Shown one piece after another: positions 29,116 through 54,100 of a stretch of 64,000 nt of DNA; the first letter of the stretch is position 1, and every line of letters starts with the position of its first letter. Origin of the DNA: Phorcus lineatus (Eukaryota > Mollusca > Gastropoda > Trochida > Trochidae); assembly GCA_921293015.1 (NCBI GenBank), contig OV121086.1, forward strand, positions 33,727,194 to 33,791,193, read 5' to 3'. The position numbers and the translations under genes were made by a program. Below the pieces are notes generated by a model. It did no database searches. It was not told the origin of the DNA and saw only the letters and a list, made by a program, of their open reading frames with translations.

Positions 29116-31906
29116 ATGTATCTTCGAGTTGTTGGCCTGTTCATCTGTCATCAATTCTTGACAGTGTTCTCGTACAAACACGTTGTCTTCATGCATGGGC
29201 TCAATTCTGGCCCTTGGGTTTTTGATTTTTTTGTTAAACAGCTGAAAAAGGTAGGTAACTTATGTTAAAAACGCCTTGAAAGAAATAACATTACTCTACT
29301 CGATAATCTGACTTCAACGAAGTGCAATATTATTGACTATGACACATGATTTACATTATTTGAGAGTATCACAGTGACGTCTTTGTTGGATTTGGTAAGA
29401 TGACGAATGACAATATCAGTGACCGTGTTATTAGGAACAAAAGTTTCAAGGTAAGGGATTCATCAGATATACGAATTTATCTCTAAACGGTCTAACGACA
29501 TCCCGATTTGGCGCATGATGTGTTACCAGTTTAGAGCAGAGAAAAAAACCCAAGCAGGCATTAGCGGACAAATCACATCATTCCGTATTAAAAAAGGATT
29601 TCGGTGATTATGTAGAATGGATGTTTCACAGAAGTTACTTCCACCTAGCTTACATTGCTTACTAAACCGAAATTTATTACACTCTTTAAATTTTAATAAC
29701 TGCCGCATAAGGGGAACGTGAACAGCATTAAATACAATATAATACAATGCAGTACAAAAGGTATACACATTTGGTTCATTGAATAGAGTTGTATTTAAAG
29801 CTCATTTTAAAAAAGATTGACCAAGTTTCCTAGCTTATCGGTATTTATTAAGGGGTATTAAGGGGTATACATGTTGTACATATCTGATCTATCATGTCAA
29901 TGTTTGTGAATGTTTTTTCTCTTTCTTGTTCTAAGTTCGAACATGAACAAATATTCATCATCAATTTAAATTTAGATGTTTCTAATTTCTTAGGAGTGGC
30001 GTCTTTACCACTTCAGTACCTATGACCTTGACCTTTCACCTATTTGCCTCCAGGACCACCCAGGAACAACGACGACCCAGATAGACTTGTTTAATGCCGC
30101 GTACAGTCTGGAACCCTTGTGGCACCAGGTTTACACTATACAGATTCAGTTCGAAAAGATCATGCAGCAACACCCAGATGGCATCCATCTTGTATGCTTC
30201 TCTCAGGGTGAGGAATGGGATATCCTTTACAGTCATATTGTTTAATCAGGTCATCAAACAGTCGCGCTTTTAGGAAAGGTTACAATACTCGATAACAAAT
30301 TACAATCGCACCGGTATGTATACCATATTTCCTCTGATAAGTGACGGACCCCTTAGTTAAAATCACTTCCGTTTTAATTTTTGTTTTTAAAGAAATAACC
30401 GTCGGGCCTCTAAGAAACTTTAGGGGGGGGGGGGGGGGGGGGGTCATGCGGTAATACCGTTCGATATTTCATAATAGATCTTATCAAAAATGTTCAATTA
30501 GGTATGACTCTGTGTACAGAGATAGATTCATTTCCGGGAAAACTCAAAATAACTAGTTGCTATTAGCGCATGAAACTCCGCATATGCATTAGCCACTACT
30601 GAAGTGGTGTTTAATGCTATTTTCAGATTGATGAACTGGTTGCGATACAATACGTATCCCGAGTCTCTACAGTTTATGAAAGAAATATAGATAGGACATA
30701 GAACAGTATTGTTATTTCTTAGAATTGTCATAGACATTACACGAAGGAAAATCACAAAATTCAAGTGACTGTGAAATTACATATAAAATATCAGAAATAT
30801 CATATAATTTCTCTATCTGTTTCTATTGTAATCACTGTTATCTCTGAAATAGAAGAAAAACATTTTTATAGCTTTTATAGTTATTTGTTTGAAACAAATT
30901 ATGTTAACAGTATCGGGATATATTGTCTCTTATGGCGATACATCGACCGATGTATTGTGGACCCTCACGATATAAATATCCTGATATATTGTCTGAACAT
31001 GTTTTGTTTCGATAATGATTGGCACAAATCGATTCGAACAGTTTGAAGTATAGCCTGTTTTCAGGTGGACTAATCTGCAGAGGTCTTTTGGGTATTCTTC
31101 AACACAATGTGGATACGTTCATATCCCTAAGTTGCCCTCTCGCCGGCCAGTACGGAGGTGAGATGCCCATAGTTTACTCAGTCTCATTAAAATCGACCGA
31201 CTTCCGAGGAATAAAAGATTCGAAACAATTGACTCGAACGGGATTGAACGTACTCTATCAGGGCATGTCTTCTCCACAACGGTCTGAAAGCGCCCTACTT
31301 GCTCGCATGTGCTGACACAAGTTTAGCGCAGACAAAACCTATAGTCATTTAATAGCGGACCTATCACATCATCGCGTTTAAAATAACGATAGCAGCGATC
31401 AAGGATAACGAATAGTAAACAGGAGTTACTTGCCCCTTGATACTGATCTCGAAGGCTTTTGACGGAGTCATTATTGGCTAGTTGAGATTGCGTCAGAACG
31501 TGCGAGTAGACCGTTGTGCAGAGGTCAACTCCTGATAGAGTACTTTCGAATTCCTTTCGAGTCAATATTTAATAACGTCTATTCCTCGGAACACGGTCGA
31601 TTTTAATCAGCCTGATAGTTAACTCGTAAATCAATCTCAATGAAATTAGATCGAACCTATCACTCGTTCTTCGCCGCGTGTCTGATCTGCACATACGGGT
31701 CGTGATAGTTACCTTTGCATTCCAGCCAATCGAAGCAACACTGGCAAATCTGTATGGATAATGTATTTATAACTTTGCGTAAAACATCAAAATGCCTATC
31801 AATGGTTCATCAATTACTAAATTAAATGTATACCTTTCTGTTGATAAATACTTGAGATTTGAACAAGCTTGCCATTTTTGAAAAAAAATGGAATTAATAA
31901 CTTATC

Positions 31907-31945
<39 letters not shown>

Positions 31946-34900
31946 TACAATCATTACCATTTTGGGCTTTATACATGAACCTTTTTGGCTCATCTGCCTT
32001 TTTGGCTCACATTTGAGGAGCCAAAATAACATCGGGCTATTCAAATAAATCAAACACTTCTGAACATCTTATTATTAGCTAATATACTTTTTTGGTATTG
32101 TTAGAGGTATATGGAATTGAAAATGAAAATTGTTGACAAATATTTTTTGGTAAAAATTATGAAAATATTTTCATGTATAATCTCGGTTTACCTTTTTGGC
32201 ACACGATATTTGATCAGCTAAATCTCGAGACTGAATGTATATAATGACATCCAAACTTTTAGCATATAATAGGCTCATTTACGTGATAAAATAAATGCAA
32301 AAACATATCGTTTATATATTCAAATAAGTTTTTCCATTTTATACATCCAGCCGCACAGTCAGAGTTGGTCGCAGACCATTCTTGTCATTTGGCTCCAGTC
32401 GCAGCGCAGCGTAACAATTTCGGAGAACCATATATGATGCTAATAGTAATAATTAAGTCGATATATTAGATCTAATGCATATCATTCTAGTACATGCTAC
32501 TAATTTGAATGCATAAGGAGTATTTTTTTCTTTTGGTATTTTCATCTATAAACAAAATACTGAAAAGTTTATCGTAAACACGATTTGAGCGCGCCGGAAG
32601 TGAACATCGCAAGCATTCCATTTCAAGTGGCTGCCCGACTTTCATTTCGTTGCTGTTTCATGTATTCACAGTGAGTATACCAATTAATGTTTTCAAATTT
32701 GAATATCTTAGTAATAAAAAAGATAGTAGCACTGATTTGACTCTGTCGTAAATCAGTCTTATCACCGTTTTGGCCTTGTTTGTGTCACTTCGGCACATTT
32801 GTATCGTAGTGTTACCTGTTTCCGTGGTATTAAATCTTGAGTATTTAGTCTTGACTAAACATAATCTGGTTGCAGAGAGAAACTAAATGATGACATGGCA
32901 ACTGTTGGAACTTTACCTGGCTGTTTATTTACATTTTAATGAAACATTGGCAACTTGCTCAAAGCTACCGAGTCGAGTTTTCGATCATGTTGTCCTTTGC
33001 TGTCTTTTCTGACAAAGTGGACGGAAATTTTCTACTAACCTTGAATCTAACATTCTATATAGTTTATCATGTCTTGGTAAGTATTTATGACATTCTTTGA
33101 CCAAATTATTCCTAAATTGCCGGTTGTTTTTACAATGTGGCCCCAAGACGGATTCGAATGGCAGTAAAATCTCAACTAGAAATTATCATTGACTGTAACA
33201 GATGCCTCTGATTACAAACTAATTTTGATGGAAAATAAACATCAGCAAGTAAGTTTATTGACTAGTTTCTATCTAAAAAATACGATCAAAATCAATCATG
33301 AATAATTAAAAAGGAACATCAAAATTTTATAGAAAATGTTAAGGTCTGTCTGATACTGAATCAGCCAATTGAAAGACCTGTTAGGTAGCGCATGGCATTC
33401 CGTGACACATTGTGTCAGAGGGAACATGTCAAACTGAAACTGTTGTTTTGATCGTTTAAAAGTTAGGTAAATTTGAAGTCTGCTGCAAACAATTTGATCT
33501 GGTAAGCTTTTCAAAACAAATTTTTATTACCCGCAACCAAATTTTTATTAGCCAAGACATGAAAAATGATGAATATTTGAAAAAAAATAATGTGGTAGCA
33601 GTTGCCTGTAAGGGACTGCAACCAAACTTGAAAATCACTTGAATTCATGATGATTTTCCTTTTTGCAACCGAACGCCAGGATGCCTAATAATACAATATT
33701 TTACAGTCACTTATTTCAGCTTTTAGTATTTTCAAGGACTAGGTAGCATTTTATAGACATTTTAGATACCTCGTCATTCGGACCCCTAAATTACTCTAAG
33801 GCCAAATTTATAGTGAAAAATAGCTTTTAATTTAACATTAACACATTTTGAAAGTATTTACTTAGTCATATTATTATTTTATTTTCACAAATATTGAACA
33901 TAAAATGTCATATTTCTGGTCAAGTTAAAAAAGTCATTCTTCTGTTCAGTGTAAATTTGGCATAGGAAACCTTTTAGTCACCAAATGTCATGTATTTAAT
34001 GCTGCTAAAGATTTAATGTGAGCAATCCAAGCAATGTTTAACTGTTCGATTAATAACTTGCTTTCTTTGCAAAAGAAAATTCTACTAATAACCAAAATAT
34101 ATATAAGAAATAAGCTTTCTATGATTTCACTTATTCATCAATAGAACAGATTACATCCCAATATTAAGTGTTTCAGGATAAGATCAATATAGCTTTACAG
34201 GAAAATATTATTTGAAAAAACTTTATTGCGATTTTACTTTTAGAATCAAACATAAGTTTTCTCCAAAAATAGTAATACATGAAAAGCATAAAATTTCATT
34301 TAATTTTCATCACTGAAGAGAATTATTAAATAGAATTTGATGGATGAAAAAATGACCATTTCCTGCTTGGGTCCATGTAAAACAACCTATAGCTACAGTT
34401 GCCTAGCCAAAATAGGCTAATAGATAACCTGAAATTCTGAAATTTCTGGGTAAGTACCTATTATATATTAACATAGATATGCTCATTTAAACTTTCGGGT
34501 TGATTACTCTAAAAATAGCCTTGACGTCACCCGTGCGAACACACTTTTGGCCACCGACTGTAGTTATTACATTGGAGAAGTGTTTGTTGGTTTTTTGGAT
34601 GAGGGGAGATGAAAGAAGTTTTATGATGGTTGGTATGAGTACCATGAGATATCTTGTTCTGATTCTAGTTATGAAACATTGCAGGAATTAACTGGCCGCT
34701 GACTTACATTGACCTCGGTCAAAAAAGCCATGGGGGAAAATGTTAGTGTTGGCTGTATGAATGTGAAACTATTATTCTCCAGGTAAGTCAAAGTATATCT
34801 AATGTAATGATTTTATTCTATATGATTGGCTAATGGCATTGATTCTAGTGTTCAATTATCAATAAACCTTTTGCTATCCTTTGAGATTATGCTGTATTTG

Positions 34901-37900
34901 CTTTTTAACCAGAACAAAAAGCCTAATAGATCTGAAGGGATGTAAACAGACTTCTTAGATAAAGCTATTGTACAAATGTAGAATGAAAGCCTTTAAAATC
35001 TATTTAATATTTTGCTGCAGAAAGTGGAGGCCTGGAAAGTGTTAATGTTGTGTGGATGTCACTTATCCAATAAAGGTAATCAATTTTATGATATGGGACT
35101 ATGCGGCCACTTATAATGGCCAGTGTGTCACCTCCTTATATATATTTATTTACCTTCAGAGCAAAAAGCAGGAAGTGCTTCATAGGACTATTAATTGTAT
35201 ATTTGTTGGCCCTGAGGCTCACAATGAGGGCTACAACAACCACAGGAACTTTACCTCTGAACTGTGGACTTGATTACAAATATGGCAGTTAAACTTCTGT
35301 TGGCAGATATTTTTTATTTAGATGCTTTATAGTAAATATTATACAGTCTGTATATCTAAAGAGAAAGTGATTTAATTTTCTGCTCATTGGGCTAATAAGG
35401 CTTAACGAGCTTATTGTTTTGAATCCTTTGAACTTGAAGCAAGGCAATCTAAAAATTTTCTAGGTTTATTAAATTTGCACCTGGCTCCTTGAAATTGATT
35501 TTTTGGGTCTTTTATACCAAAATTTATTTAGAAGGTGAAGTTTTCAGAATGACATAATCTTTTTATTGATACTTTTTAAAATTATTGTCTTCAGCATGTA
35601 TTTTTATATGTAAAATATACAAATGTGCAGTATTATTATTATTTGTTTATTATTTGTCTGGCCTCTAAAGCCAGGTGGTTTTAGGGCATTGCCAATATTC
35701 TGGGGTCTTTTTGGCATTGTCTGTCAAACTTTTCACAATTTTTGTGCAACTATTTTCACGGGATCATATTAAGAAACCAACTGGTATATGAAGCTCACAT
35801 TTTTAGACAAAGTTTGTAAATTGGTCTTGATTGTCCCTCAAATAGACGGGAAGATTGTTCATCCTTGAACCTTTATTTCATTTCTCTCCAAGTAATGCTT
35901 GGAGACACAATTCACCGACATCTTCATATCAACATTAAAATATATAAAAATCCAAAAAATATCAAAATCCAGCGTTGCTGCTCATACAGGCTTTTTTTTC
36001 CCTCAATCACTTGATATCACCCTTCATTATATTTTTCAACATCAGCTTCTTATGGAGTATGCATCATTTGCACCTTTATGCACCAGGTCCAAGTTTCATG
36101 CACATTTTTGCGATGTACCGATTCAAAGCTGGATGAATTGGGACACATTGTCACATGATTTTGAAAAATTATTCTGCTATTGCTGTATTCCCAACTAGGT
36201 GTTTGCATGTTTTCATATGCCCACCAACAGTCATTTACCAATAGATTTGTTTAAGTGCTTTTGGTTGTGTACTGCACACCAGAGGTGGTGACAATACTGA
36301 ATCAGTGTGCGCACATATTTGACTCCAATTCACCCACATTAAGTATTTTCTATTAAACTTTCATTCTGCTTTTTTTCAGGTCAATGGTGGATAAGTGAAC
36401 TGAAGATCTTATGAAACCTGAACGAGTTGCTTGTCCCCATGGATGATAACCTAACGCTGTGCAGAGTAATTTGGGGTCTATTCCAGGCCACAGGTCATCA
36501 GGATGTCTTTATCAGGCTGAAAGCATGAGATCTTAAACGATCAAGCAGGGTAAGTTTTATCAACCGAATTTTAGATACTATTCTAATGAGATTGGGGATT
36601 TCATCTTTATAAGTAAGGCTTTGTATGGTTGATGAAATCTGATTGATGTGCCCTCACTACTCAAGAAACAATAATGGCAGATTTCTGTCTAGAGACTAAT
36701 TATGTTACATGTAATTGTTGAGGAAAGATTTTCAGATGACAAATAATATTTAAACCTTATATCTTCTGTAATCTAATACATCAACATCTGTTGGTTATGA
36801 TTAAAATATCATCTGCAACCCTTGGATACTTGTATTGTTTTAGCTCATCTTGCCTGATAGGCCAAATGGGCTTTTGAAATGTCATGGCATCCAGTGTCCA
36901 GCATCTGTGAGATTTTCATCTACTCCTACAGAACCATTGGCTCAGGAAACCTGAGATCTTGGCTACAGACCATGATTAATGAGGTTTCTACTTTACAGAT
37001 TTGGTGATCCTGTGACATCTAATAAGTGCCACTAGGGTCATGCCTTAAAACCTATTTTCATCTTTTTCTCTGGAAGCAAGAGGCCTGAAACTTTGTTTAT
37101 AGACTCCTTAGCTGATAGGATTCTAATTTATCAATTTGGTGACCCTGTGACCCTTTATTTAGGCCACAGGGACCCTGCCCCAAATGCCTATTTTCATCTT
37201 CTCCAGAAGCAAGAGACCTTTTTAGCTGAAAACAGAGATTCAACAGCATATCTAACCATCATTAGCTTTTTCAACTTACAAGTTACTTTTGCACGTAATG
37301 CATTGAACAAATAATGTTCAGTCTATGTCATACGTGACGCGGTATAGTTTGTAAATTACATATTTTATGTCCTTGCATAAAATCTTGTTCACATTGTCCA
37401 ATTCAGGTCTGTAAGGATCAGAATATGTAAATGACTGTTGGTATGGTAGTTTGAAAATAGTTTTCAGATGTTTCAGCTATTTTAATGTATTTAGTGATTA
37501 CTTTCAACTCCAGTTAATGTTTCAAATGGTTGTAACAAATGGTTGTAACATGGTATATAAGTAAAGACAGCTTCAGAATATATTGACAAATTTTGATATT
37601 TCAATTTCTTACGCAAAAGTGTGAGTGATTAATGATATGTTGAAAATTAAAATTCATTATCATTATCAGTTTATATCACAACATTTTCAGCTTACTCAGT
37701 CTGTTTGTAACTATTGATGTTAAGTTACTTACTGTTTCAAACTTAAAAGTTTTATATTATTTTCATAGTTACGCGATTTTGTCAAGGACGAGCAGCAGGA
37801 CTCGACCTCTAGTGACTGCTTGCAGGCCTGGCCTTCCTTTCACCCTTTCAAAGTGACATTGCAGGTTTGGGAGAAAAGTCTACTGTTATTTTCATTGTTA

Positions 37901-40900
37901 GTTTCAGTTGTGTCTTCAATGGGCTAGTAAGACAAATGGGCTTGGCTTCACAAATGATCATATATATGATATATGTTTTGAATTTACGTGATATAGTAAC
38001 ACTTATTAGTGATAATTTTCCCAAAAAAGCAATTTGAGAGACATAATGTATTAGCATCCGACCATAATTTCATGATGTACATGATTCCAAGATGTTTTAA
38101 TTTCTAGGCCATGACTCAGAAGGGTCAGGTTTTTTTCTGGAGCATATCATTACCATCATTTGACCCATCCTCACTATATTTGGTATTCTCCCTATTATTC
38201 ATGTAGATGCCCCTTTTGTGGGTTTAAGTTCTACTTCAATTTTATTTTTTTCTGTTTCCTTGGCAACAATGTAGACTTTGATTATGCCGATGGTTTACAT
38301 CACGGCATGTTGTCCCGCATCTGTAAACATTTAACATTATTAGCTCATCAGGTCTAAAAAGACCCGATGGGCTTATGGCATGGCATGGCTTCCGGCGTCC
38401 GTCCATCCGTCCATCCGTAAACTTTTCACTTTTTCGACTTCTTCTCCAGAACCAATGACTCTAGAGAGCTGAAATTTTATGTGCATACTCCTTGGCAAAT
38501 GGGGATTCTGAATTGTAGATTTCTTGACCCCATGACCCCAAATGGGGTCACAAGGGTCAAAACCTTAAAAATCTATTTTAATCTTCTTCTCCAGTTCCAA
38601 AAGGTCCAGAGAGCTGAAAAGTTCTGTGTAGACTTCTTGGCCAATGGGGATTCTTAATTGTAGATTTTGTGACCCCATGACCCCAAATGAGGTCAGAGGG
38701 GTCAAAACCTGAAAAACCTATTTTAATCTTTTTCCCTAGTTCCAAAAGGTCTAGAGAGCTGAAAAGGTGTGTGTAGACTCCTTGGTCAACGGGGATTCTA
38801 AATTGTAGGTTTGGTGAACCCATGACTCCAAATGGGGTCACAGGGGTCAAAACCTAAAAAACCTAATTTCATCTTTTTCCCTAGTTCCAAAAGGTCTAGA
38901 GAGCTGAAAAATTGTGTGAAGACTCCTTGGACACTGGGGATTCTAAATTGTAGGTTTGGTGACCACTTGACCCCAAATTGGGGTCAAAACCTTAAAATCC
39001 TACTTTCATCTTCTTCTCCAGTTCCAAAAGGTCTTGATAGCTTAATTGTTGTGTGTAGACTCCTTAGACAATGGGGATTCTGAATTGTAGGTTCGGTGAC
39101 CCCTTGACCCAAAGACACATCATCAGTCCCCTCTCTCAGCATGGATGGACACGTCCATTTTCATGTAGGGATCATAGAGTGACAAAATTTGAATCAAAAC
39201 TGAATCATAAAGTTTTAGGGATTTGTTTTAAGATAGATGCATTTATGGAAATCAATTGACTTTTTTTTAGCCCTTCAAACACTGTCTAAAGTCTTGTCAC
39301 CCCGCACAATAATAGACCATCCCTCAAGCTTGGTGTGAGTGAGTTTGGGTTTAACGTGACGGCAATCTTTCAGCTATTTCACTAGGTCGACTAAGACTTT
39401 GATTGACGTTTCAGTTGCTTGACTCAAGTAAACACGTTTGTCACTTGATTTGATTTACTTATATCTGAATTTTCTTATCCAAGAGAGCATAATTTGAAAA
39501 AAAATATTATAGTTTTGCTGTAATCGAATTATTAATGAACAAAACCTGCTAAGTGCCCTTTAGTCAGTAATTTATGTGGCTATTTACTTTTGTTTATTTT
39601 TTCTCTCGGGGTTATTAGATATAAATGCATTTATGGTTAGACAAAATTGGCCCGACACAAGGACGGACTAAATAATTTTACAGCCCGTCCTCAACCAAAG
39701 TTACCCGTCTTGGACGTTGGGACAGGCTATCTTTCCTACACTGCCCATGACCCCATGGTCTAAACCCAAACATCTATTCCTATCAAAAGTCTGATGAGCT
39801 ACAGAGCCCATGGCTCTATTTTTTACTTCCTCTCTAAATCCATTGGCTCTATACACCTAAAATACTAAGATCAGACACCTTGGCAAATAGGTATTTAAAA
39901 TTGTAGATTTTTTTTACCCTGTTGCCCCTCATAAGGGCCTGGGGGCATCCCCTCACAATTTAGCTCATTTGACATCTGTCCGTCTGCATGAGGATTCTAA
40001 ATAAATACTTCTGACCATGTGACCACAAGGGACCACACCCTATAAGCCTATTTTCATCTTCTTCTCCAGAAGCCAGAGGCCAAAAAAGGTGAAATCTTGT
40101 ATAGAGACTTGATGGGGATTCTATTATATAGATTTGGTGAAACCATGACCTCTCGGGACCACAGGAACCACGTGACCATTATAGACAGGCTGATGAGAAA
40201 GGATGGCAAAAGGCAAAAGTTGAAACAGATCTCATCTGAGATAAAATCCTAAAGGCTTGTGAGCCAAAAAGGTAATATATATATGCTTTAAGTAAGATCT
40301 ACTTGTAATTTTGAATTCTTATGGTAATTGTTATACCTATCAGTAGAGTATATGTGATTTGGTTTGGACAGGGAGAGATTGTAAAAAGCATAATTTGGAA
40401 CAGATCTCATCTGAGATATAATCCTAAGGGCTTGTGAGCCAAAATGGTAATATATATGCTAGAAGTAAGACCTACTTGTAATTGGGCCCTTATGGAAGTT
40501 GTGATACTATTCTGTAGAATATAAACTGATTCTTTGGACTGGGAGAGAGTGTCAAAAGGCAAAAGTTGGAACAGGTCTCATCTGAGGCGAATCCTAAGGG
40601 CTTGTGAGCCAAAATGGTAATATATATGCTATAAGTAAGAGCTACTTGTAATTGGGCCCTTATGGAAGTTGTGATACTATTCTGTAGAATATAAACTGAT
40701 TCTTTGGACTGGGAGAGAGTGTCAAAAGGCAAAATTTGGAACAGGTCTCATCTGAGATGTACTCCTATGGGCTTGTGAGCCAAAATGGTAATATATATGC
40801 TAGAAGTAAGAGCTACTTGTAACTGGGCTCTTATGGAAGTTGTGATACTAATCTGTAAAATATAAACTGATCCTTTGGATTGGGCGAGAGTGTCAAAAGG

Positions 40901-43900
40901 CAAAAGTTGGAACAGATCTCATCTAAGGTGTAATCCTAAGGGCTTGTGAGCCAAAATGGTAATATATATGCTAGAAGAAAGACCTGTTTGTAATTGAGCT
41001 CTTATGGAAATTGTGATACTAATCTGTAGAATATGAACTGCTTCTTTGGACTCGGAGAAAGTGTCAAAAGGCATTATTTGGAACAGATCTCATCTGAGAT
41101 ATACTCCTAAGGGCTTGTGAGCCAAAAAGGTAATATATATGCTAGAAGTAAGAGCTACTTGTAATTGGGCTTTTGTGGTAGCTGTGATACTAATCTGTAG
41201 CATATGAACTGTTTCTTTGGACTGGGAGAGAGTGTCAAAAGGCAAAAGTTGGAACAGGTCTTATTTGTGATGAAATTTTAAGGGCTTGTGAGCCAAAATG
41301 GTTATATATATGCTAGAAGTAAGAGCTACTTGTAATTATGGGCTTTTTTGGTAGCTGTGATACTAAATTGTAGAATATAAACTGTTTCTTTGGACTGGGA
41401 GAGAGTGTCAAAAGGCAAAAGTTTGAACAGATCTCATCTGAGATGTACTCCTAAGGGCTTGTGAGCCAAAATGGTTATATATATGCTAGAAGTAAGAGCT
41501 ACTTGTAATTATGGGCTTTTTTGGTAGCTGTGATACTAATCTGTAGAATATAAACTGTTTCTTTGGACTGGGAGCGAGTGTCAAAAGGCAAAAGTTGGAA
41601 CAGATCTCATCTGAGTTGGAATCCTAATGGCTTGTGAGCCAAAATAGTAATATATATGCTAGAAGTAAGAGCTACTTGTAATTATGGGCTTTTTTGGTAG
41701 CTGCGATACTAATCTGTAAAATATAAACTGATCCTTTGGACTGGGAGAGAGTGTCAAAAGGCAAAAGTTGGAACAGATCTCATCTAAGGTGTAATCCTAA
41801 GGGTTTGTGAGCCAAAATGGTAATATATATGCTAGAAGAAAGACCTGTTTGTAATTGAGCTCTTATGGAAATTGTGATACTAATCTGTAGCATATGAACT
41901 GTTTCTTTGGACTGGGAGAGAGTGTCAAAAAGCAAAAGTTGGAACAGGTCTTATTTGTGATGAAATTTTAAGGGCTTGTGAGCCAAAATGGTTATATATA
42001 TGCTAGAAGTAAGAGCTACTTGTAATTATGGGCTTTTTTGGTAGCTGCGATACTAATCTGTAAAATATAAACTGTTTCTTTGGACTGGGAGCGAGTGTCA
42101 AAAGGCAAAAGTTGGAACAGATCTTATCTGAGTTGGAATCCTAATAGCTTGTGAGCCAAAATGGTAATATATATGCTAGAAGTAAGAGCTACTTGTAATT
42201 ATGGGCTTTTTTGGTAGCTGTGATACTAAATTGTAGAATATAAACTGTTTCTTTGGACTGGGAGAGAGTGTCAAAAGGCAAAAGTTTGAACATATCTCAT
42301 CTGAGATGTACTCCTAAGGGCTTGTGAGCTAAAATGATTATATATATGCTAGAAGTAAGAGCTACTTGTAATTATTGGCTTTTTTGGTAGCTGTGATACT
42401 AATCTGTAGAATATAAACTGTTTCTTTGGACTGGGAGCGAGTGTCAAAAGGCAAAAGTTGGAACAGATCTCATCTGAGATGTACTCCTAAGGGCTTGTGA
42501 GCCAAAATAGTAATATATATGCTAGAAGTAAGCGCTACTTGTAACTGGGCTCTTATGGAAGTTGTGATACTAATCTGTAAAATATAAAGTGTTTCTTTGG
42601 ACTGGGCGAGAGTGTCAAAAGGCAAAAGTTGGAACAGATCTCATCTAAGGTGTAATCCTAAGGGCTTGTGAGCCAAAATGGTAATATGTATGCTAGAAGA
42701 AAGACCTGTTTGTAATTGAGCTCTTATGGAAATTGTGATACTAATCTGTAGAATATGGACTGCTTCTTTGGACTGGGAGCAAGTGTCAAAAGGCAAAAGT
42801 TGGAACAGATCTCATCTGAGTTGGAATCCTAATGGCTTGTGAGCCAAAATGGTAATATATATGCTAGAAGTAAGAGCTACTTGTAATTGGGCTTTTGTGG
42901 TAGCTGTGATACTAATCTGTAGCATATGAACTGTTTCTTTGGACTGGGAGAGAGTGTCAAAAGGCAAAAGTTGGAACAGGTCTTATTTGTGATGAAATTT
43001 TAAGGGCTTGTGAGCCAAAATGATTATATGCTAGAAGTAAGAGCTACTTGTAATTTTGAATTCTTTTGGTAATTGTGATACTAATCAGTAGAGTATATGT
43101 GTATGGTTTGGACAGGGAGAGATTGTAAAAATCATAATTTGGAATAGATCTCATCTGAGATATAATCCTTAGCGCTTGTGAGCCAAAATGGTAATATATA
43201 TGCTTGAAGTAAGAGCTACTTGTAATTGGGCTTTTGTGGTAGCTGTGATACTAATCTGTAGCATATGAACTGTTTCTTTGGACTGGGAGAGAGTGTCAAA
43301 AAGCAAAAGTTGGAACAGGTCTTATTTGTGATGAAATTTTAAGGGCTTGTGAGCCAAAATGGTAATATATATGCTAGAAGTAAGAGCTACTTGTAATTAT
43401 GGGCTTTTTTGGTAGCTGCGATACTAATCTGTAAAATATAAACTGTTTCTTTGGACTGGGAGCGAGTGTCAAAAGGCAAAAGTTGGAACAGATCTTATCT
43501 GAGTTGGAATCCTAATGGCTTGTGAGCCAAAATGGTAATATATATGCTAGAAGTAAGAGCTACTTGTAATTATGGGCTTTTTTGGTAGCTGTGATACTAA
43601 TCTGTAGCATATGAACTGTTTCTTTGGACTGGGAGAGTGTCAAAAGGCAAAATTTGGAACAGGTCTCATCTGAGATGTACTCCTAAGGGCTTGTGAGCCA
43701 AAATGGTAATATATATGCTAGAAGTAAGAGCTACTTGTAATTTTGAATTCTTTTGGTAATTGTTATACTTATCAGTAGAGTATATGTGTATGGTTTGGAC
43801 AGGGAGAGATTGTAAAAATCATAATTTGGAATAGATCTCATCTGAGATATAATCCTTAGCGCTTGTGAGCCAAAATGGTAATGTTTATGCTAGAAGTAAG

Positions 43901-46900
43901 AGCTACTTGTAATTGGGCCCTTATGGTAGTTTTTAAACTAATCTGTAGAATATAAACTGTTTCTTTGGACTGGGAGAGAGTGTCAAAAGGCAAAAGTTGG
44001 AACAGGTCTCATCTGAGATGTACTCCTATGGGCTTGTGAGCCAAAATGGTAATATATATGCTAGGAGTAAGAGCTACTTGTAACTGGGCTCTTAAGGAAG
44101 TTGTGATACTAATCTGTAAAATATAAACTAATCCTTTGGACTGGGCGAGAGTGTCAAAAGGCAAAAGTTGGAGCAGATCTCATCTAAGGTGTAATCCTAA
44201 GGGCTTGTGAGCCAAAATGGTAATATATATGCTAGAAGAAAGACCTGTTTGTAATTGAGCTCTTATGGAAATTGTGATACTTATCTGTAGAATATGGACT
44301 GCTTCTTTGGACTCGGAGAAAGTGTCAAAAGGCATTATTTGGAACAGATCTCATCTGAGATGTAATCCTAAGGGCTTGTGAGCCAAAAAGGTAATATATA
44401 TGCTTGAAGTAAGAGCTACTTGTAATTGGGCTTTTGTGGTAGCTGTGATACTAATCTGTAGCATATGAACTGTTTCTTTGGACTGGGAGAGAGTGTCAAA
44501 AGGCAAAAGTTGGAACAGGTCTTATTTGTGATGAAATTTTAAGGGCTTGTGAGCCAAAATGATTATATGCTAGAAGTAAGAGCTACTTGTAATTATGGGC
44601 TTTTTTGGTAGCTGTGATACTAAATTGTAGAATATAAACTGTTTCTTTGGACTGGGAGAGAGTGTCAAAAGGCAAAAGTTTGAACATATCTCATCTGAGA
44701 TGTACTCCTAAGGGCTTGTGAGCTAAAATGATTATATATATGCTAGAAGTAAGAGCTACTTGTAATTATTGGCTTTTTTGGTAGCTGTGATACTAATCTG
44801 TAGAATATAAACTGTTTCTTTGGACTGGGAGCGAGTGTCAAAAGGCAAAAGTTGGAACAGATCTCATCTGAGTTGGAATCCTAATGGCTTGTGAGCCAAA
44901 ATGGTAATATATATATGCTAGAAGTAAGAGCTACTTGTAATTATGGGCTTTTTTGGTAGCTGTGATACTAATCTGTAGCATATGAACTGTTTCTTTGGAC
45001 TGGGAGAAAGTGTCAAAAGGCAAAATTTGGAACAGGTCTCATCTGAGATGTACTCCTGAGGGCTTGTGAGCCAAAATGGTAATATATATGCTAGAAGTAA
45101 GCGCTACTTGTAACTGGGCTCTTATGGAAGTTGTGATACTAATCTGTAAAATATAAAGTGTTTCTTTGGACTGGGCGAGAGTGTCAAAAGGCAAAAGTTG
45201 GAACAGATCTCATCTAAGGTGTAATCCTAAGGGCTTGTGAGCCAAAATGGTAATATATATGCTAGAAGAAAGACCTGTAGACCTGTTTGTAATTGTGCTC
45301 TTATGGAAATTGTGATACTAATCTGTATAATATGGACTGCTTCTTTGGACTGGGAGCAAGTGTCAAAAGGCAAAAGTTGGAACAGATCTCATCTGAGTTG
45401 GAATCCTAATGGCTTGTGAGCCAAAATGGTAATATATATGCTAGAAGTAAGAGCTACTTGTAATTGGGCTTTTGTGGTAGCTGTGATACTAATCTGTAGC
45501 ATATGAACTGTTTCTTTGGACTGGGAGAGAGTGTCAAAAGGCAAAAGTTGGAACAGGTCTTATTTGTGATGAAATTTTAAGGGCTTGTGAGCCAAAATGA
45601 TTATATGCTAGAAGTAAGAGCTACTTGTAATTATGGGCTTTTTTGGTAGCTGTGGTACTAATCTGTAAAATATAAAGTGTTTCTTTGGACTGAGCGAGAG
45701 TGTCAAAAGGCAAAAGTTGGAACAGATCTCATCTAAGGTGTAATCCTAAGGGCTTGTGAGCCAAAATGGTAAGATATTTGCTAGAAGAAAGACCTGTTTG
45801 TAATTGAGCTCTTATGGAAATTGTGATACTAATCTGTAGAATATGAACTGCTTCTTTGGACTCGGAGAAAGTGTCAAAAAGCATTTTTTGGAACAGATTT
45901 CATCTGAGATGTACTCCTAAAGGCTTGTGAGCCAAAATGGTAATATATATGCAAGAAGTAAGAGCTACTTGTAATTATGGGCTTTTTTGGTAGCTGTGAT
46001 ACTAATCTGTAGAATATAAACTGTTTCTTTGGACTGGGAGAGAGTGTCAAAAGGCAAAATTTGGAACAGGTCTCATCTGAGATGTACTCCTAAGGGCTTG
46101 TGAGCCAAAATGGTAATATATATGCTAGAAGTAAGAGCTACTTGTAATTTTGAATTCTTTTGGTAATTGTGATACTTATCAGTAGAGTATATGTGTATGG
46201 TTTGGACAGGGAGAGATTGTAAAAATCATAATTTGGAATAGATCTCATCTGAGATATAATCCTTAGCGCTTGTGAGCCAAAATGGTAATGTTTATGCTAG
46301 AAGTAAGAGCTACTTGTAATTGGGCCCTTATGGTAGTTTTTAAACTAATCTGTAGAATATAAACTGTTTCTTTGGACTGGGAGAGAGTGTCAAAAGGCAA
46401 AATTTGGAACAGGTCTCATCTGAGATGTACTCCTATGGGCTTGTGAGCCAAAATGGTAATATATATGCTAGAAGTAAGAGCTACTTGTAACTGGGCTCTT
46501 ATGGAAGTTGTGATACTAATCTGTAAAATATAAACTGATCCTTTGGACTGGGCGAGAGTGTCAAAAGGCAAAAGTTGGAACAGATCTCATCTAAGGTGTA
46601 ATCCTAAGGGCTTGTGAGCCAAAATGGTAATATATATGCTAGAAGAAAGACCTGTTTGTAATTGAGCTCTTATGGAAATTGTGATACTAATCTGTAGAAT
46701 ATGAACCGCTTCTTTGGACTCGGAGAAAGTGTCAAAAGGCATTATTTGGAACAGATCTCATCTGAGATGTACTCCTAAGGGCTTGTGAGCCAAAAAGGTA
46801 ATATATATGCTTGAAGTAAGAGCTACTTGTAATTGGGCTTTTGTGGTAGCTGTGATACTAATCTGTAGCATATGAACTGTTTCTTTGGACTGGGAGAGAG

Positions 46901-49900
46901 TGTCAAAAGGCAAAAGTTGGAACAGGTCTTATTTGTGATGAAATTTTAAGGGCTTGTGAGCCAAAATGGTTATATATATGCTAGAAGTAAGAGCTACTTG
47001 TAATTATGGGCTTTTTTGGTAGCTGCGATACTAATCTGTAAAATATAAATTGTTTCTTTGGACTGGGAGAGAGTGTCAAAAGGCAAACTTTGGAACAGGT
47101 CTCATCTGAGATGTACTGACCTTAGGGCTTGTGAGCCAAAATGATTATATATATGCTAGAAGTAAGAGCTACTTGTAATTATGGGCTTTTTTGGTAGCTG
47201 TGATACTAAATTGTAGAATATAAACTGTTTCTTTGGACTGGGAGAGAGTGTCAAAAGGCAAAAGTTTGAACAGATCTCATCTGAGATGTACTCCTAAGGG
47301 CTTGTGAGCCAAAATGGTTATATATATGCTAGAAGTAAGAGCTACTTGTAATTATTGGCTTTTTTGGTAGCTGTGATACTAATCTGTAGAATATAAACTG
47401 TTTCTTTGGACTGGGAGCGAGTGTCAATAGGCAAAAGTTGGAACAGATCTCATCTGAGTTGGAATCCTAATGGCTTGTGAGCCAAAATGGTAATATATAT
47501 GCTAGAAGTAAGAGCTACTTGTAATTATGGGCTTTTTTGGTAGCTGTGATACTAATCTGTAGCATATGAACTGTTTCTTTGGACTGGGAGAGAGTGTCAA
47601 AAGGCAAAATTTGGAACAGGTCTCATCTGAGATGTACTCCTATGGGCTTGTGAGCCAAAATGGTAATATATATGCTAGAAGTAAGCGCTACTTGTAACTG
47701 GGCTCTTATGGAAGTTGTGATACTAATCTGTAAAATATAAACTGATCCTTTGGACTGGGCGAGAGTGTCAAAAGGCAAAAGTTGGAACAGATCTCATCTA
47801 AGGTGTAATCCTAAGGGCTTGTGAGCCAAAATGGTAAGATATATGCTAGGAGAAAGACCAATTTGTAATTGAGCTCTTATGGAAATTGTGATACTAATCT
47901 GTAGAATATGAACTGCTTCTTTGGACTCGGAGAAAGTGTCAAAAAGCATTATTTGGAACAGATTTCATCTGAGATGTACTCCTAAGGGCTTGTGAGCCAA
48001 AATGGTAATATATATGCTAGAAGTAAGAGCTACTTGTAATTATGGGCTTTTTTGGTAGCTGTGATACTAATCTGTAGCATATGAACTGTTTCTTTGGACT
48101 GGGAGCGAGTGTCAAAAGGCAAAAGTTGGAACAGATCTCATCTGAGTTGGAATCCTAATGGCTTGTGAGCCAAAATAGTAATATATATGCTAGAAGTAAG
48201 AGCTACTTGTAATTATGGGCTTTTTTGGTAGCTGTGATACTAATCTGTAGCATATGAACTGTTTCTTTGGACTGGGAGAGAGTGTCAAAAGGCAAAAGTT
48301 GGAACAGGTCTTATTTGTGATGAAATTTCAAGGGCTTGTGAGCCAAAATGGTAATATATATGCTAGAAGTAAGAGCTACTTGTAATTATGGGCTTTTTTG
48401 GTAGCTGCGATACTAATCTGTAAAATATAAACTGATCCTTTGGACTGGGAGAGAGTGTCAAAAGGCAAAAGTTGGAACAGATCTCATCTAAGGTGTAATC
48501 CTAAGGGCTTGTGAGCCAAAATGGTAATATATATGCTAGAAGAAAGACCTGTTTGTAATTGAGCTCTTATGGAAATTGTGATACTAATCTGTAGAATATG
48601 AACTGCTTCTTTGGACTCGGAGAAAGTGTCAAAAGGCATTATTTGGACAGATCTCATCTGAGATGTAATCCTAAGGGCTTGTGAGCCAAAATGGTAATAT
48701 TTATGCTAGAAGTAAGAGCTACTTATAATTGGGCTTTTGTGGTAGCTGTGATACTAATCTGTAGAATATTAACTGCTTCTTTGGACTAGGAGAGAGTGTC
48801 AAAAGGCAAAAGTTTGATCAGATCTCATCTTAGATGTAATCCTAAGGGCTTGTGAGCCAAAATGGTAATATATATATAAGGGAGTAAGAACTACTTGTAA
48901 TTGAGATCTTGTAGTAGTTTTGATACTTATCGGTAGAATGTAAACTGATCTCTTTGGACTTGGAGAGAGTGTCAAAAGGCAAAAGTTCGAACAGATCTCA
49001 TCTGAGATGTAATCCTAAGGGCTTGTGAGCTAAAATGGTAATATATATGTAAGATAAATAAGTAAGATATACTTGTAGTTGGGCTCTTGTTGTAGCTAAG
49101 ATACTAATCTGTAGAATATAAACTGCTTCTTTTGACTTGGAGAGAGTATCAAAGGGAAAATGTTGGAACAGATCTCATCTGATATATATACATAATGAAC
49201 CAAAATGGTAATATATATGCTAGAAGTTTGACATACTAGCAATGATTCCTTTTCTAGTTTTGATTTGTAATTTCTTTTGTACTTTGAGAGATTGTAAAAT
49301 TGCATAATTTTGAACAGACCTCTTCTGGATAATATCTGAAATCTCACTGATTTAACAGATAAGGGTGTTGCAGGGGTGCAACTATAGGATGGTTAACCAA
49401 GACCAGTTTGTAGTGCATCCTGCTACATCAGCGTTTTTGTCTCCGCCTAGCTGAGACTCTCATGTACTCTGATATCCTTCGGCCTATAAAGCTTGTATTG
49501 CTTACAACTGGTTACTCATGGCTATTTATTGCCTAAATTGACATTTCTTTGAAGTCGCTATTGCTGAATGCGAGTCATTTCATTGGCTTGCTATATTTAG
49601 CGATACAAGCGTTTTAGGCCAAAGGATATCAGGGTATCAGGGTATATGATGGAGGTGGGCAGAGACAAATACGCTGATGTAGCAGGATGTTGGTAGTGGA
49701 AAGTTTTGTTCAGAATAACACCTTTGAGACTTAATGTTCTAGATTGTTATAAGAAAATATCAATGTGAATATTGAAATATTTTTTTGTTTATTTGTTTTT
49801 GACCCCACATCAAAACGTTGAAAGATCATCAGTCTTCATGTGCTTAAGTGAAAGTTTTTCTGCTTTCTCCTCAATATTCAAATGATAATTTGCCATTTGG

Positions 49901-51132
49901 GATTGCTTGTATAGCTTGTTCTTCCATGCCATGTCTATTGAGTTATAGCTCTTTGATATTTACAGAGTTACAGAGACATTGTGATGGAACTTCATGTTCT
50001 GTTTCAGGAGATCATAGTGGCAACTTCAGTGGAAACGATCAAGGCCTGTGCTCTTGTTATTGGTTGTCTTTTCCAATACTTCTGTCAACCAGAGCCTCAT
50101 CAAATGCATGTAAAAAAAAATATACAGATTTCTGTGTTTGCAATAAAAAATAATCAAATCATTTATGTCTTCTGTTTTCAACATGTCTGTGAAGCAGTAA
50201 AAACATTTTGTTACATAAATTTGTTGAAGTCATTGGCTTAAGATATATAAAGGTCAATCAAGCATAAGGCTAAGCCAAAAAAGGCATATCTGTGATGTTT
50301 TAAGTTTGATTAAGCAATTATTGAAAAGGGAAATATGCTCATGGCAAACTGACTTTCCGGCTGTCAATGTTTGAAATTCAAGAATTCAAATCCTGCCAGA
50401 GGCTTTGCAACTTTGTCTGCAGTAGGGAACACCATTGAGTTATTTAGGTGCAATACTGAATTTCTCTGCACTACCACTAATGGTTTGCTAGTTCCAGCAG
50501 ATGCACGATGTTTGCAGGTTTCACAGGCTTCACCGCATTGCATGGCCACCATGATGTTGTGGGCTTTCTCCCTCCAATGATATTAGCAGCGACAGAATAA
50601 GTGAAATACTCTTGAATGGGTGGTTATTACCTAAATGAGTATTAACTTGGTGAATGTCAGTAGATCTTTTAGGGGGAGAGAAAGAATGATGAATATTTTA
50701 CCGTAGGATGTGAAACGGCACATTTTTGAGATTTTTATGTAAACAATTAGGTTTAGAACAATTTATGTATGAAAGAAATAATAGAATCTACTGGAATAGC
50801 TATATTGTGCTTATTTACATGGTGCCAAAACTGTAATATATATGCGAAAACATGGTGTGCCAAAAAGGTAATAATTTTGCCAAGAGCCAAAATTGTAAAT
50901 TTTGCTTGAACAAAAATGCCTAACAATTTTGGCTCCACCTTTTTGGCTCACAAAAAATATAATTCTCATAAAAAAATAACTATTAACTATTAACTGTTCA
51001 AAACCACTTTTTATTGTTAGCTTAATGATAATTAATATTTTACCTGACTTAAATAAGTCATTTTGCAGCTAATAAAAAATGAGCCAAAAAGGTAACAATT
51101 TTGCTATATGGTCAAAAAGGTAATAATTGTAC

Positions 51133-51177
<45 letters not shown>

Positions 51178-54100
51178 ATACTATATAAAGCAAAAATGTA
51201 CCTTTTTGTTGATAAATACTGGGGAGTTTGAACCAGTTTGCCATTTTAAAAAAATGAGATTAATAACTTATCAATATAATATATATAAATTTATGTATGT
51301 CATGAATACAAAATTATCTATATAGATACAAAAAGTCTGTTGGCAAAAAGCTATTCTGTAGCTGTTTTTTTAATTTTTTTACAAATATTAGAGGCAGAAT
51401 AACAGAAGATTTGTTTTGATAAGTTTGATGCTCTTTCGTAAATATGAACAGTTACTTTGTACAATAAATTTCCAGGAATTTAATAAGTGGTTTACATTAA
51501 ACTTCTCTATTTCAGACACTCTACTTCGGAAATATTTCCCTCTCAACTTCTTGAAACATAACATTTACAGGTAAAAATGGTGGTTTTTGTGGTCAATATA
51601 TATATAAGTGAAATCACGGGAGAAGAATATGGAGCCAATAATTGTAACATGGGAATAATTTTACCTCACAGATAAGCTACATAGGCCAATGTCTTCTAAG
51701 TTTTAAAATGTTAAATAAAAACATTCGGTTTCGCGTATCTATCTTTAATTCCACGGTGTGCATGGGAGCGAGGGTCAGACAATAACGGGCCTAATTTAAA
51801 GAGCCACTCCGTGATTTTCATAACATATTATTTACCTTTGATACGAACCTATATGTCATATGTTGTGATATAAAACCAAAAAATCTGAACTTTTCATCTC
51901 AAAAAGACATATACATGACAAATACTGGTTTTCCATGAAAATCTAAAAACAGACTTATAAATGCACAGAAGTGTAGTTATCACGTCCAATACACATGGAT
52001 ACTAGTTATATAACCTAACAAACACTATCAACTTCTAACTGCCCTCCTGGCTGTTTAAGATAAGTCTCCAAAATTACGTTTGACCATTTGACGCGCGCCA
52101 CTGTCGGGTTTTCGATCATAATTGCGACGTTCTACCTTCATAATGTCACTGTAAAAAAACAATTAGCTAAAATGTATCTTTTTGGTAACAGTCGATACTT
52201 CGCGATAAAATGACACAACTGATTAAGTTTGGCATATTTGATTCCAACAACTCACGGAGTGGCTCTTTAAGGAATGAGCGATTATTTGAGGCGAGCTTTC
52301 TGTGAGTACGGTCGTCTTTTTCTTTCCAACCAGGTTCTTTTACACGGATATGGGACAGAAGTGGTCCGTAGCAAACTACTGGTATGGTGAGTTATTCCCT
52401 TTGATAATTCCAGAGCTGTTAATAGATGCTCAATTTCAACAAAGTCTCTTTAATTTCAAAGTTATTAAATTCAATTCATCATTTACAAATGTCCCTTTAA
52501 AGGAAAATTTTTAATTTTGTCAATTTCGTTGTTTCATCTTTTTCAATTCACAAAGTCGAACAAAATAGCGGCAACGCATTCCAAACATATACAAGCGTAT
52601 GATGGTTTGATCAAGATGATATTTAATCATTGTGGGAACAGGTTGAATAAGAAAACGAGGGGTGGACATTGAGACATACTATTTTATGAATGCTTTAACC
52701 AGTAACCAGCATTACAGGGAGCCTTAGTTCTTGTGAAAAGGAGGCTTTGACAATGAGACTTAAGTATTTTATGAGTGCTTCAACTAGTACTTAGCATAAC
52801 AGGTAGGCCCTACCTCTTTCGACTTCCCCATGATATCTTAATGTAAATTGTTTTATTCTTTGCTTCCAGATCCTCACCAGCAGGAGTTGTACAGGAAGTT
52901 CTCCAAATTCCTCGCTGTTCTCAACAATGATACTAACAATCCCGAAAGTCAGAGTGAGTTGAAGTCTCTTGAGTGATTTACATTCACTATAGCAAGTTTT
53001 ATTTCATCTTTTATATGTTACATCTTTCACCATTGAATATCAATTTATGTAAAATATAATTTCTTCATTGTGAAGAATATCTATCAAATCAAATCGATAA
53101 TCAAGCGTAAACTGCATGCCGCCATTGTAGTGGACACCTATTGATCATTTGAGTTAGGGAAATGCATTCGCATATTTTTACTGAACTTGGGACGGTCGTT
53201 TAAGAAGTCTTTGTATCGGATAAAAATGTCGTCTTGCAATTTGTAACATTTGTTTTCGTCTTCCTGAGGGAACCGTTTATTTCCTCATGAAACTATCCTG
53301 CTACATCAGCGTATTTGTCTCCGTCTAGCTCCATCATATACCCTGATATCCTTCGGCCTAAAACCCTCGTATCGCTAAATATAGCAAGCCAGTGAAATGA
53401 CTCTCATTTAGCAATAGCGGCACAACCCGGATGAGAATTCAAACAAATGTCAATGTAGGCGATACGAGAGTTTTAGGCCGAAGGATATCAGGGTATATGA
53501 TGGAGCTGAGCGGAGACAAATACGCTGATGTAGTAGGATGTCAGGAAACATTCCTATAATGTAGGTTTGAAATATACATGTTTTTACCACTAATTTTGTA
53601 ATCAATAAAAACAAATGCCATCATATAACTTTAAGCTTTTATAAAAATTTTAACAACAAATCAAATAATTTTTTTTCCCAGCATATTTGGAACATTCTCA
53701 AAAATATGGAAATTTTTATCATTTAATCATTCTTTAGATCCTTTGTATTTGATCATAATTTTTTTTGAGGCGTTCCATGTGGAAACTCTTGTCATTAACA
53801 AACTATGAATCACTACATAGCTGAACTTAGAGCTAATATAGTTGTGATGATCTTTTACCATGCTCATGTCTTCTCATCAAGAATCTATTATTAGAAATCT
53901 GGCTTGTTACCTCTACCACGCGTCAAATTTACGCCTTAAAACAATAGTGAAATTGCTACATTTATTAAACTGCTTGTGCAAGCATATATTTTCATTACTC
54001 TGTATGGACCATGTTGTACTTAGGGCCGATGGCCCACACCTTTGTACTGAAATAAAGAAATGATATGAATCATTAATATGAATGATGGATGATATTTACA

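Follow-up and report, generated by a model that had tools for sequence, protein, structure and literature searches.

A 171-bp satellite array in a PPT2 intron of Phorcus lineatus interpreted as the internal module of a large transposon-like element

The 171-bp satellite in the intron of a PPT2-like gene belongs to the interior of a large mobile element, which is bounded by inverted terminal repeats and set in (TA)n tracts, and is not a stray centromere-like array. We put at roughly 0.8 the probability that a large DNA-transposon-like element, apparently non-autonomous and with 20-bp terminal inverted repeats (TIRs), lies in (TA)n microsatellites and carries the satellite as an internal module. 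The window, i.e. the whole stretch of 64,000 nucleotides analysed, carries one copy (Table 1). A reading as a centromere-like or locus-specific satellite is not borne out, as the array belongs to one of 58 dispersed two-ended copies. Work on how higher-order repeats (HORs) form has usually dealt with centromeres, in which the effects of age and selection are confounded. In the present genome, the homologous arrays number in the dozens and belong to separate, nearly identical elements, the arms of which give the age of an array against which its changes can be counted.

The element, its copies and its coding capacity

Searching the genome (958 Mb in 74 contigs) for the exact ends of the element gave 68 left-end and 64 right-end matches, and reversed controls gave 0; the patterns included the two bases adjoining each end, which are selected and not observed. 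Each left end was paired with the closest right end that fitted, up to a distance of 60 kb, which resulted in 58 elements with both exact ends, spread over the genome and 12,963 to 42,666 bp long (median 20.9 kb), among which very long ones (e.g. 42.7 kb) may hide more than one element. A 55-base piece of the monomer has 113 exact matches, and the genome-wide mapping proposed for the monomer placed all 100 listed matches inside these elements and in their orientation.

The TIRs are imperfect (18/20), are located exactly at both termini, carry GTACAATYATTACC and are alike in all copies read. (TA)n adjoins all 16 left ends (4-33 units) and all 18 right ends (7-27 units) that were read, and none of these ends lies outside such a tract, where Mutator-like elements would leave a duplication of 8-11 bp; within (TA)n a target-site duplication is unreadable. 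Inverted repeats at both ends and dispersed copies at different sites are features of class II TIR transposons, and (TA)n flanks on both sides are a feature of Mutator-like elements that target TA microsatellites. Among 34 flanks compared, few pairs are alike apart from those of neighbouring elements. A relation between flanks does exist in places, as some sites are located within another dispersed repeat that bears its own TA tract. Two pairs of neighbouring elements are arranged head-to-tail, and an inverted, head-to-head neighbour is present on C15. The right arms of ten copies diverge by 0.36-3.41%, the window copy being the most diverged of the ten, and such small differences indicate that the family was recently mobile.

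Table 1. Coordinates in the window of the element, its parts and the PPT2-like exon stretches
Feature	Position	Strand	Basis
Whole dispersed element, window copy, 19,188 bp	31945..51132	+	exact ends common to copies genome-wide
Left TIR, 20 bp	31945..31964	+	alignment, 18/20 identical to right
Right TIR, 20 bp	51113..51132	-	alignment
(TA)n microsatellite at left junction, ends TTA	31908..31944	.	TRF; same context at 16/16 left ends read
G then (TA)n microsatellite at right junction	51133..51187	.	TRF; same context at 18/18 right ends read
Satellite array, monomer 171 bp, ~52 monomers	40207..49182	+	TRF and segmentation, monomer typing
Left subterminal cluster, 4 sites like GAGCCAAAA(T/A)GGTAA, starts 31954, 31977, 31994, 32188	31954..32202	-	motif scan
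Right subterminal cluster, 6 motif sites: 50822+, 50857+, 50884+, 50921-, 50935-, 51081+	50822..51095	.	motif scan
Smaller second tandem array, period 145, 4.7 copies	38438..39110	+	TRF; found in other copies too
Site of ~1.6-1.9 kb missing from window copy	34415..34432	+	comparison with other copies
Fold-back (MITE-like) unit in right arm, two arm pairs 87-89% complementary	49416..49689	.	folding z-score -11
PPT2-like exon stretches upstream of element	30051-30209, 31064-31207	+	tblastn
PPT2-like exon stretches downstream of element	52869-52949, 54098-54187, 55246-55395, 56843-56980	+	tblastn

The element is apparently non-autonomous, and scanning of parts of it detected no gene belonging to it, although spliced genes with short exons may be present there. 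The window copy has no stop-to-stop frame above 101 amino acids; among the other copies analysed, frames within the element reach at most 134 (left arm of copy C19a), and several frames of 110-129 amino acids are located in left arms or arrays. A six-frame Pfam search of 8.7 kb on the left side of one copy found nothing except a DDE_3 match, and in the right arm of the same copy nothing exceeded the cut-off, with one match at E 0.05. The DDE_3 match, which at 27.2 bits (E 4e-06) narrowly misses the cut-off of 28.6, represents a stop-ridden Tc1-like transposase remnant (identified with Pfam in one copy; four copies were read) within the segment that the window copy lacks and that is present in all eight copies, out of ten, that cover this site. 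In the 30.8-kb C41 copy, the extra ~10 kb was considered as the element's own transposase and rejected, as it is a nested Ty3/Gypsy-type retrotransposon.

Monomer order in the window and in sister arrays

The tandem satellite, predicted as about 53 monomers of ~171 bp at 40180-49350, is real: TRF reports it as one array (40207-49182; period 171, 52.2 copies, 86% matches), and degenerate monomers extend its edge to ~49330 on inspection by eye. A check of string positions located the named monomer-type sequences where they had been claimed. The first type is found at 40309, 43741 and 46148 and is followed by the GGGCCC type at 40482, 43913 and 46320; the GAAAGACC type (40977, 44238 and 46645) and the TTATTTGTGATG type (41261, 44522 and 46929) are also present in the three series. 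The CTGTAAAATATAAACTGATC type is found at 40853 and 46521, with a variant in its place in the 43.7-kb series. The first type occurs a fourth time, at 43054, but there the series does not follow. The series starts are separated by 3432 bp (20 monomers) and then by 2407 bp (14 monomers), the latter in agreement with the predicted offset of ~2408 bp, and this spacing shows that ordered blocks recur without forming a single regular HOR.

Runs of consecutive monomers at least 96% identical to another run were compared with 500 shuffles of monomer order. The window array contains runs of 6 monomers (offset 14, 98.2% identity), 5 monomers (offset 19) and 4 monomers (offset 15), and the longest run in its shuffles is 4. 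The fixed recurring order that had been proposed is thus right in part: monomer clustering shows that order is preserved above chance and that blocks recur, but the spacing is unequal, the offsets vary and the copy at 43054 stands without a series. A regular HOR in the alpha-satellite sense was rejected for the window array on the basis of these offsets and spacings; its monomer order is block duplication within the array.

The arrays of ten copies comprise 18-79 monomers, and array length correlates with element length (r = 0.95, nine copies). Of the ten arrays, the four longest show more monomer order than expected by chance, and a run of 4 is absent from the other six. None of the nine sister arrays has a run of at least 4 monomers at 96% in common with that of the window. 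In one sister copy, 26 consecutive monomers are identical (100%) to those located 15 further on, so that a 15-monomer unit is duplicated in tandem and a HOR, in the sense of a near-identical multi-monomer unit in tandem, is present there. Two copies whose right arms differ by only 0.36% carry arrays of 34 and 57 monomers, with their six longest shared blocks collinear. Inside individual copies of the element, slippage during replication or unequal exchange may lengthen, shorten and block-duplicate the array, and would thereby generate the repeated monomer order.

A motif shared with the element ends, and competing origins

With up to 3 mismatches allowed, the array contains 53 sites of a 15-bp motif; the element outside the array contains 10, and the window outside the element a single one. 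The 10 sites outside the array all lie within ~310 bp of an element end, with 0.6 expected in the non-array element, and the best 22-bp stretch of the right cluster matches the monomer at 20 positions. The two clusters are asymmetric, the left sites being all on the minus strand and the right ones on both. Beyond the motif, monomer and element ends show no resemblance (the local match at the left end, 13 bp with score 26, is within background). Conservation of the motif within monomers is moderate (rank 28 of 156 for the 15-bp window and 10 of 151 for the 20-bp window), and was dropped as proof of function. Its presence in the monomers and its clustering at both element ends suggest amplified transposase-binding sites, so that the motif is a putative subterminal binding site and a testable link between transposon ends and satellite birth. 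The array may have grown from it by tandem duplication. We tentatively propose, as a possibility we hold with considerable doubt, that each 171-bp unit is a cassette with one putative binding site, that dozens of internal sites help distant ends to capture a scarce trans-acting transposase or else soak it up, and that selection on transposition maintains the array, which is remade in every copy, HORs thus arising anew outside centromeres and faster than by point mutation.

The element would be moved by a transposase supplied in trans, perhaps Mutator-like, as suggested by the TA-microsatellite targeting described for such elements and by the many MULE-domain frames in the genome (150 matches, with 150 of 521 candidates scored). 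In ten MULE loci of ~3.3 kb each, the motif (2 mismatches), the TIR of the element and runs of 8 TA units are all absent, and none of the 38 MULE places compared out of 150 is within 5 kb of a two-ended element. A variant-end pattern (the right-end base after ATTACC and a last base other than A) has no match in the genome. No autonomous partner was found with this pattern, among the ten MULE loci or in the long C41 copy, which counts against the proposed reading.

A Tc1/mariner-type transposase could instead move the element, the left-arm remnant being the leftover of its own gene. Tc1/mariner elements duplicate TA, and the DDE_3 match lies in the ~1.6-kb segment of other copies. However, the sequence preceding the remnant, inspected by eye, is presumably a Tc1-type end of its own, and since it differs from the GTACAAT end of the element, the remnant is more likely a nested, truncated insert. 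Nor are Tc1/mariner elements known to be tied to (TA)n tracts, which counts further against this origin, and we regard it as unlikely. Distinctly less probable is an origin as a giant non-autonomous Helentron (HINE) that spreads by rolling-circle replication, like the satellite-carrying oyster elements and Drosophila DINE-1. HINEs are non-coding, have short inverted repeats near their ends and tandem repeats as their central core, and often contain a microsatellite; the element has such a core, and its two head-to-tail pairs also fit this origin. The inverted repeats here are, however, exactly terminal and not subterminal, whereas mite HINEs have them at a distance of 2-4 nt (5' end) and 38-60 bp (3' end), and a palindrome 8-35 bp from the latter end. 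The last 70 nt of the right end fold no better than shuffles (z 0.52), the left junction reads (TA)nTTA and the right one G(TA)n in place of a TT site, and the neighbour on C15 is inverted. Oyster CL1-13 arrays average ~5 monomers or fewer (longest 29; PMC7492417), against 18-79 in ten copies here.

That a conventional centromere-type higher-order satellite was transposed or misassembled into PPT2 would fit the 171-bp period and the ordered monomer types. It is highly improbable given that all listed monomer-piece matches (100 of 113) are inside elements, that the arrays differ between loci, and that the flanking arms are conserved and the terminal repeats precise. The most remote of the origins weighed is that selection acted on the array at PPT2 as a regulatory or structural element with a function for the host, to which its position in this gene alone points; similar elements are found at 57 other places, and an Rfam search of the window gave no match.

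Under the preferred reading of a TIR element in (TA)n microsatellites, the closest systems are the plant MuTAnT, SaTar and Micron elements (PMC4486113, PMC5907723), which are non-autonomous with TIRs and variable TA or other microsatellite flanks, SaTar also having end-to-end neighbours in microsatellites as found here. Those plant elements are 0.2-1.7 kb long (autonomous ones ~5 kb), in contrast to 13-43 kb and a kilobase-scale satellite here, so that our element far exceeds in size the TA-microsatellite-targeting elements described there. The Crassostrea gigas Helentron/HINE satellite DNA and Pearl (PMC7492417, PMC8268682) likewise have ~165-bp repeats that a mobile, non-coding element carries around the genome in its middle part, also in genes, but are reported with mostly short arrays, subterminal inverted repeats and a 3' stem-loop, and belong to the rolling-circle class. 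TIR-220 of the Foldback element Tetris in Drosophila virilis (PMC4079207) resembles our satellite in that the tandem repeat seems terminal-derived (37 bp are shared with the transposon end there) and seeds satellite arrays. Its repeats sit in long TIRs and form longer satellite-like arrays, whereas our array is internal to 20-bp TIRs and no free array is present among the 100 listed monomer-piece matches. Galileo (PMC3688188) has long TIRs with repeated THAP-domain binding sites, comparable to tandem repeats with extra transposase-binding sites, putative in our case; binding was tested there by gel shift and is deduced here from motif placement, and a P-type transposase is not implicated here.

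The PPT2 host gene

The predicted location of the array inside a PPT2 intron agrees with tblastn, using a human PPT2 sequence as query: PPT2-like exon stretches are collinear on the plus strand on both sides of the element. Two of these matches are weak, at 52869 (E 0.006) and 55246 (E 0.061; it overruns its end into a stop). Misplacement of the array from another locus is less likely because the gene continues on both sides, the copy has its own (TA)n junctions and its right arm is the most diverged of ten copies. A single insertion into an intronic (TA)n tract would have brought the copy to PPT2, and a role in this gene would not be needed. A search for the Palm_thioest family returned three places, all on C5 and probably PPT1-like, the gene in the window being found by tblastn instead.

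The element holding the satellite

The original prediction placed a satellite of about 171 bp in an intron of PPT2, and the gene matches bear this out: a tblastn search (human PPT2 query) detected a PPT2-like gene on the plus strand with matches on both sides, the array lying in the intron between them.

Features of the window
Feature	Position	Strand	Details	Method
PPT2-like matches before element	30051-30209, 31064-31207	+		tblastn
Element	31945-51132		19,188 bp, 20-bp terminal inverted repeats (TIRs)	
145-bp tandem array in element	38438-39110			
171-bp satellite array	40207-49182		period 171, 52.2 copies, single array	Tandem Repeats Finder
Fold-back, MITE-like unit nested in right arm	49416-49689		folding z -11	
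PPT2-like matches after element	52869-52949, 54098-54187, 55246-55395, 56843-56980	+	52869 and 55246 weak	tblastn

Both array flanks are dispersed repeats, as found by searching the genome with each (best 40 places of 2107 first-look candidates at 96-97% identity on the right, best 40 of 1346 at 91-97% on the left, the window's own place included in both). These high candidate numbers are probably due to smaller repeats inside the flanks; the flank query with the fold-back unit gave 2107 first-look candidates, whereas the right end of the element gave 72. Comparison with ten other copies (C37a by its left part only) placed the shared unit between about 31.9 and 51.2 kb of the window. Its left end is GTACAATCATTACCATTTTG and its right end the imperfect inverse (18/20 identical). 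Genome-wide, the left end has 68 exact matches and the right end 64, and the reversed patterns, used as control, have none. Pairing of the ends yielded 59 rows, two with one common right end, and thus 58 elements of 12,963 to 42,666 bp (median 20.9 kb), leaving 9 left and 6 right ends unpaired. In the longest row (G000 C5:1994695-2037360, 42.7 kb) a left-arm segment is present three times, suggesting either duplication of left arm and array or more than one element. The right arms of ten copies fall roughly into two groups, with the window copy apart, and their low divergence (0.36-3.41%) indicates that the copies spread recently. Another copy (G000 C41:1643716-1674529) contains a nested Ty3/Gypsy-type retrotransposon, probably recent given its long open frame.

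The satellite itself appears, from its distribution, to belong to the element. Searched for exactly, a 55-base stretch from one monomer variant has 113 genome matches, and its reverse, a control, has none. Among the 100 matches listed of the 113, all in element orientation and representing 37 elements, 86 lie in two-ended elements, 14 lie no more than 30 kb inward of an unpaired end and none lies outside elements. In the first DNA search with the satellite, the best 29 of 225 candidates were scored.

(TA)n adjoins the element at all 16 left ends read (4-33 units) and all 18 right ends read (7-27 units); the end patterns took in the two nearest flanking bases, so that those two were selected but the longer TA runs were not. 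Such tracts would mask the length of any target duplication. Once TA runs were masked, most flanks had no match to any other flank. Like flanks came from neighbouring elements and from three pairs at different sites (97 bp at 81%, 84 bp at 90% and 21 bp at 95%), and the window element's own two flanks are alike over 74 bp at 82%. The likeness between different sites and between the window element's own flanks indicates that some insertions lie in TA tracts belonging to other dispersed repeats. Beyond the TA run, flank L035 resembles L043, the right flank of copy C2c resembles L044, and L034 resembles L046. A direct repeat of about 85 bp lies on either side of the window element (31824-31910 and 51194-51276), with (TA)n after or before each; its two copies have diverged too far to represent a recent target duplication. 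Two head-to-tail element pairs have a single (TA)n run between partners, and on C15 the broken left end of one element contains a second, oppositely oriented one. Such arrangements would be expected if elements insert into TA tracts, those beside older copies included.

Monomer order and array turnover

The 52 window monomers were compared with 354 from nine other copies, and average-linkage clustering cut at 6% sorted the 406 into 48 types, some single-member. At 96% identity or more, runs of 6, 5 and 4 consecutive window monomers are found again 14, 19 and 15 monomers away, respectively; the longest run in 500 shuffles of monomer order was 4. The predicted series at 40.3, 43.74 and 46.15 kb was found there, its starts 20 and then 14 monomers apart, and a fourth copy of its starting type stands isolated at 43054. 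Of the fixed order proposed for these monomers, the recurrence therefore stands, with runs beyond the shuffle maximum, but one regular higher-order unit does not, given the unequal offsets and spacing of starts: the order is real and reflects block duplication.

Array length correlates with element length (r = 0.95, nine copies). Arrays have more in common at their edges than in between: one type closes seven of the ten and another the remaining three, and a single type opens five. Copies C19a and C2c have right arms 0.36% apart and arrays of 34 and 57 monomers, respectively, with their six longest common blocks collinear. In the C15b array, 26 monomers in a row match, at 100% identity, those lying 15 positions further downstream; this is a young higher-order unit of 15 monomers, about 2.56 kb long. 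Of the ten arrays, the four longest showed order above chance and the remaining six did not. Together, the shared edges, the C19a and C2c pair, C15b and the order in the four longest arrays suggest an array turnover through duplication and loss of blocks that outpaces substitution in the arms.

Shared motif and candidate mover

Allowing up to 3 mismatches, the window contains 64 sites of GAGCCAAAATGGTAA, of which 53 fall in the array, 10 in other parts of the element and 1 outside it. These ten sites begin at 31954-32188 and 50822-51081, no more than about 310 bp from an end; a first-order Markov model predicts 0.6 sites for the whole non-array element (maximum 2 in 40 draws). The best local match between monomer and right end covers 20/22 bases (score 34, background maximum 28 over 262 tiles); against the left end the best score, 26, is within the background of 262 tiles. 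Conservation of the motif is only moderate across 393 aligned monomers. Short repeats that cluster close to both ends are characteristic of transposase-binding sites. The GAGCCAAAATGGTAA motif may be such a site here, by analogy with the description of Galileo, where tandem repeats likewise contain such sites and binding was demonstrated (PMC3688188), and with that of Tetris, whose repeats have 37 bp in common with its ends (PMC4079207).

The window element has no frame longer than 101 aa, and the longest inside the element in the other copies in hand has 134 aa. Six-frame scans of one copy (left 8.7 kb and right arm) found nothing beyond a Tc1-like DDE_3 remnant with stops, located in a 1.6-1.9-kb segment that is absent from the window copy and present in all eight copies covering the place. 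A non-autonomous Helentron (HINE) would agree with the tandem core but disagrees with both the terminal structure and the target. Plant Mutator-like elements (MULEs) that have inverted repeats and target TA microsatellites have been described (PMC4486113, PMC5907723), and frames with a MULE domain are plentiful in this genome (at least 150 matches, the best 150 of 521 candidates scored), many with identical scores, suggesting that some families expanded recently. The element ends were not found in about 3.3 kb of sequence at each of ten MULE loci, and a Mutator-like transposase as the mover is thus a lead only. Complete arthropod MULEs are given as 1.9-10 kb (PMC13359780). Three of the features are already known separately: mobile elements that carry a satellite, targeting of TA tracts, and repeats of binding sites. 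Their combination in a TIR element of 13-43 kb in which no genes were detected, lying in TA tracts and carrying a kilobase-scale satellite with the element's end motif and a young higher-order unit, was not found in the open-licence literature searched.

Other frames in the window

Identical frames recur at a shift of 2203 bp (21076-22804 and 23279-25007), marking a tandem duplication of about 2.2 kb that is young and includes a minus-strand frame of coiled-coil-like appearance by eye. Two long frames (7138-9903 and 16448-18790) show repeated zinc-finger-like motifs by eye, with tandem repeats of 36-, 138- and 109-bp period inside or adjoining them.
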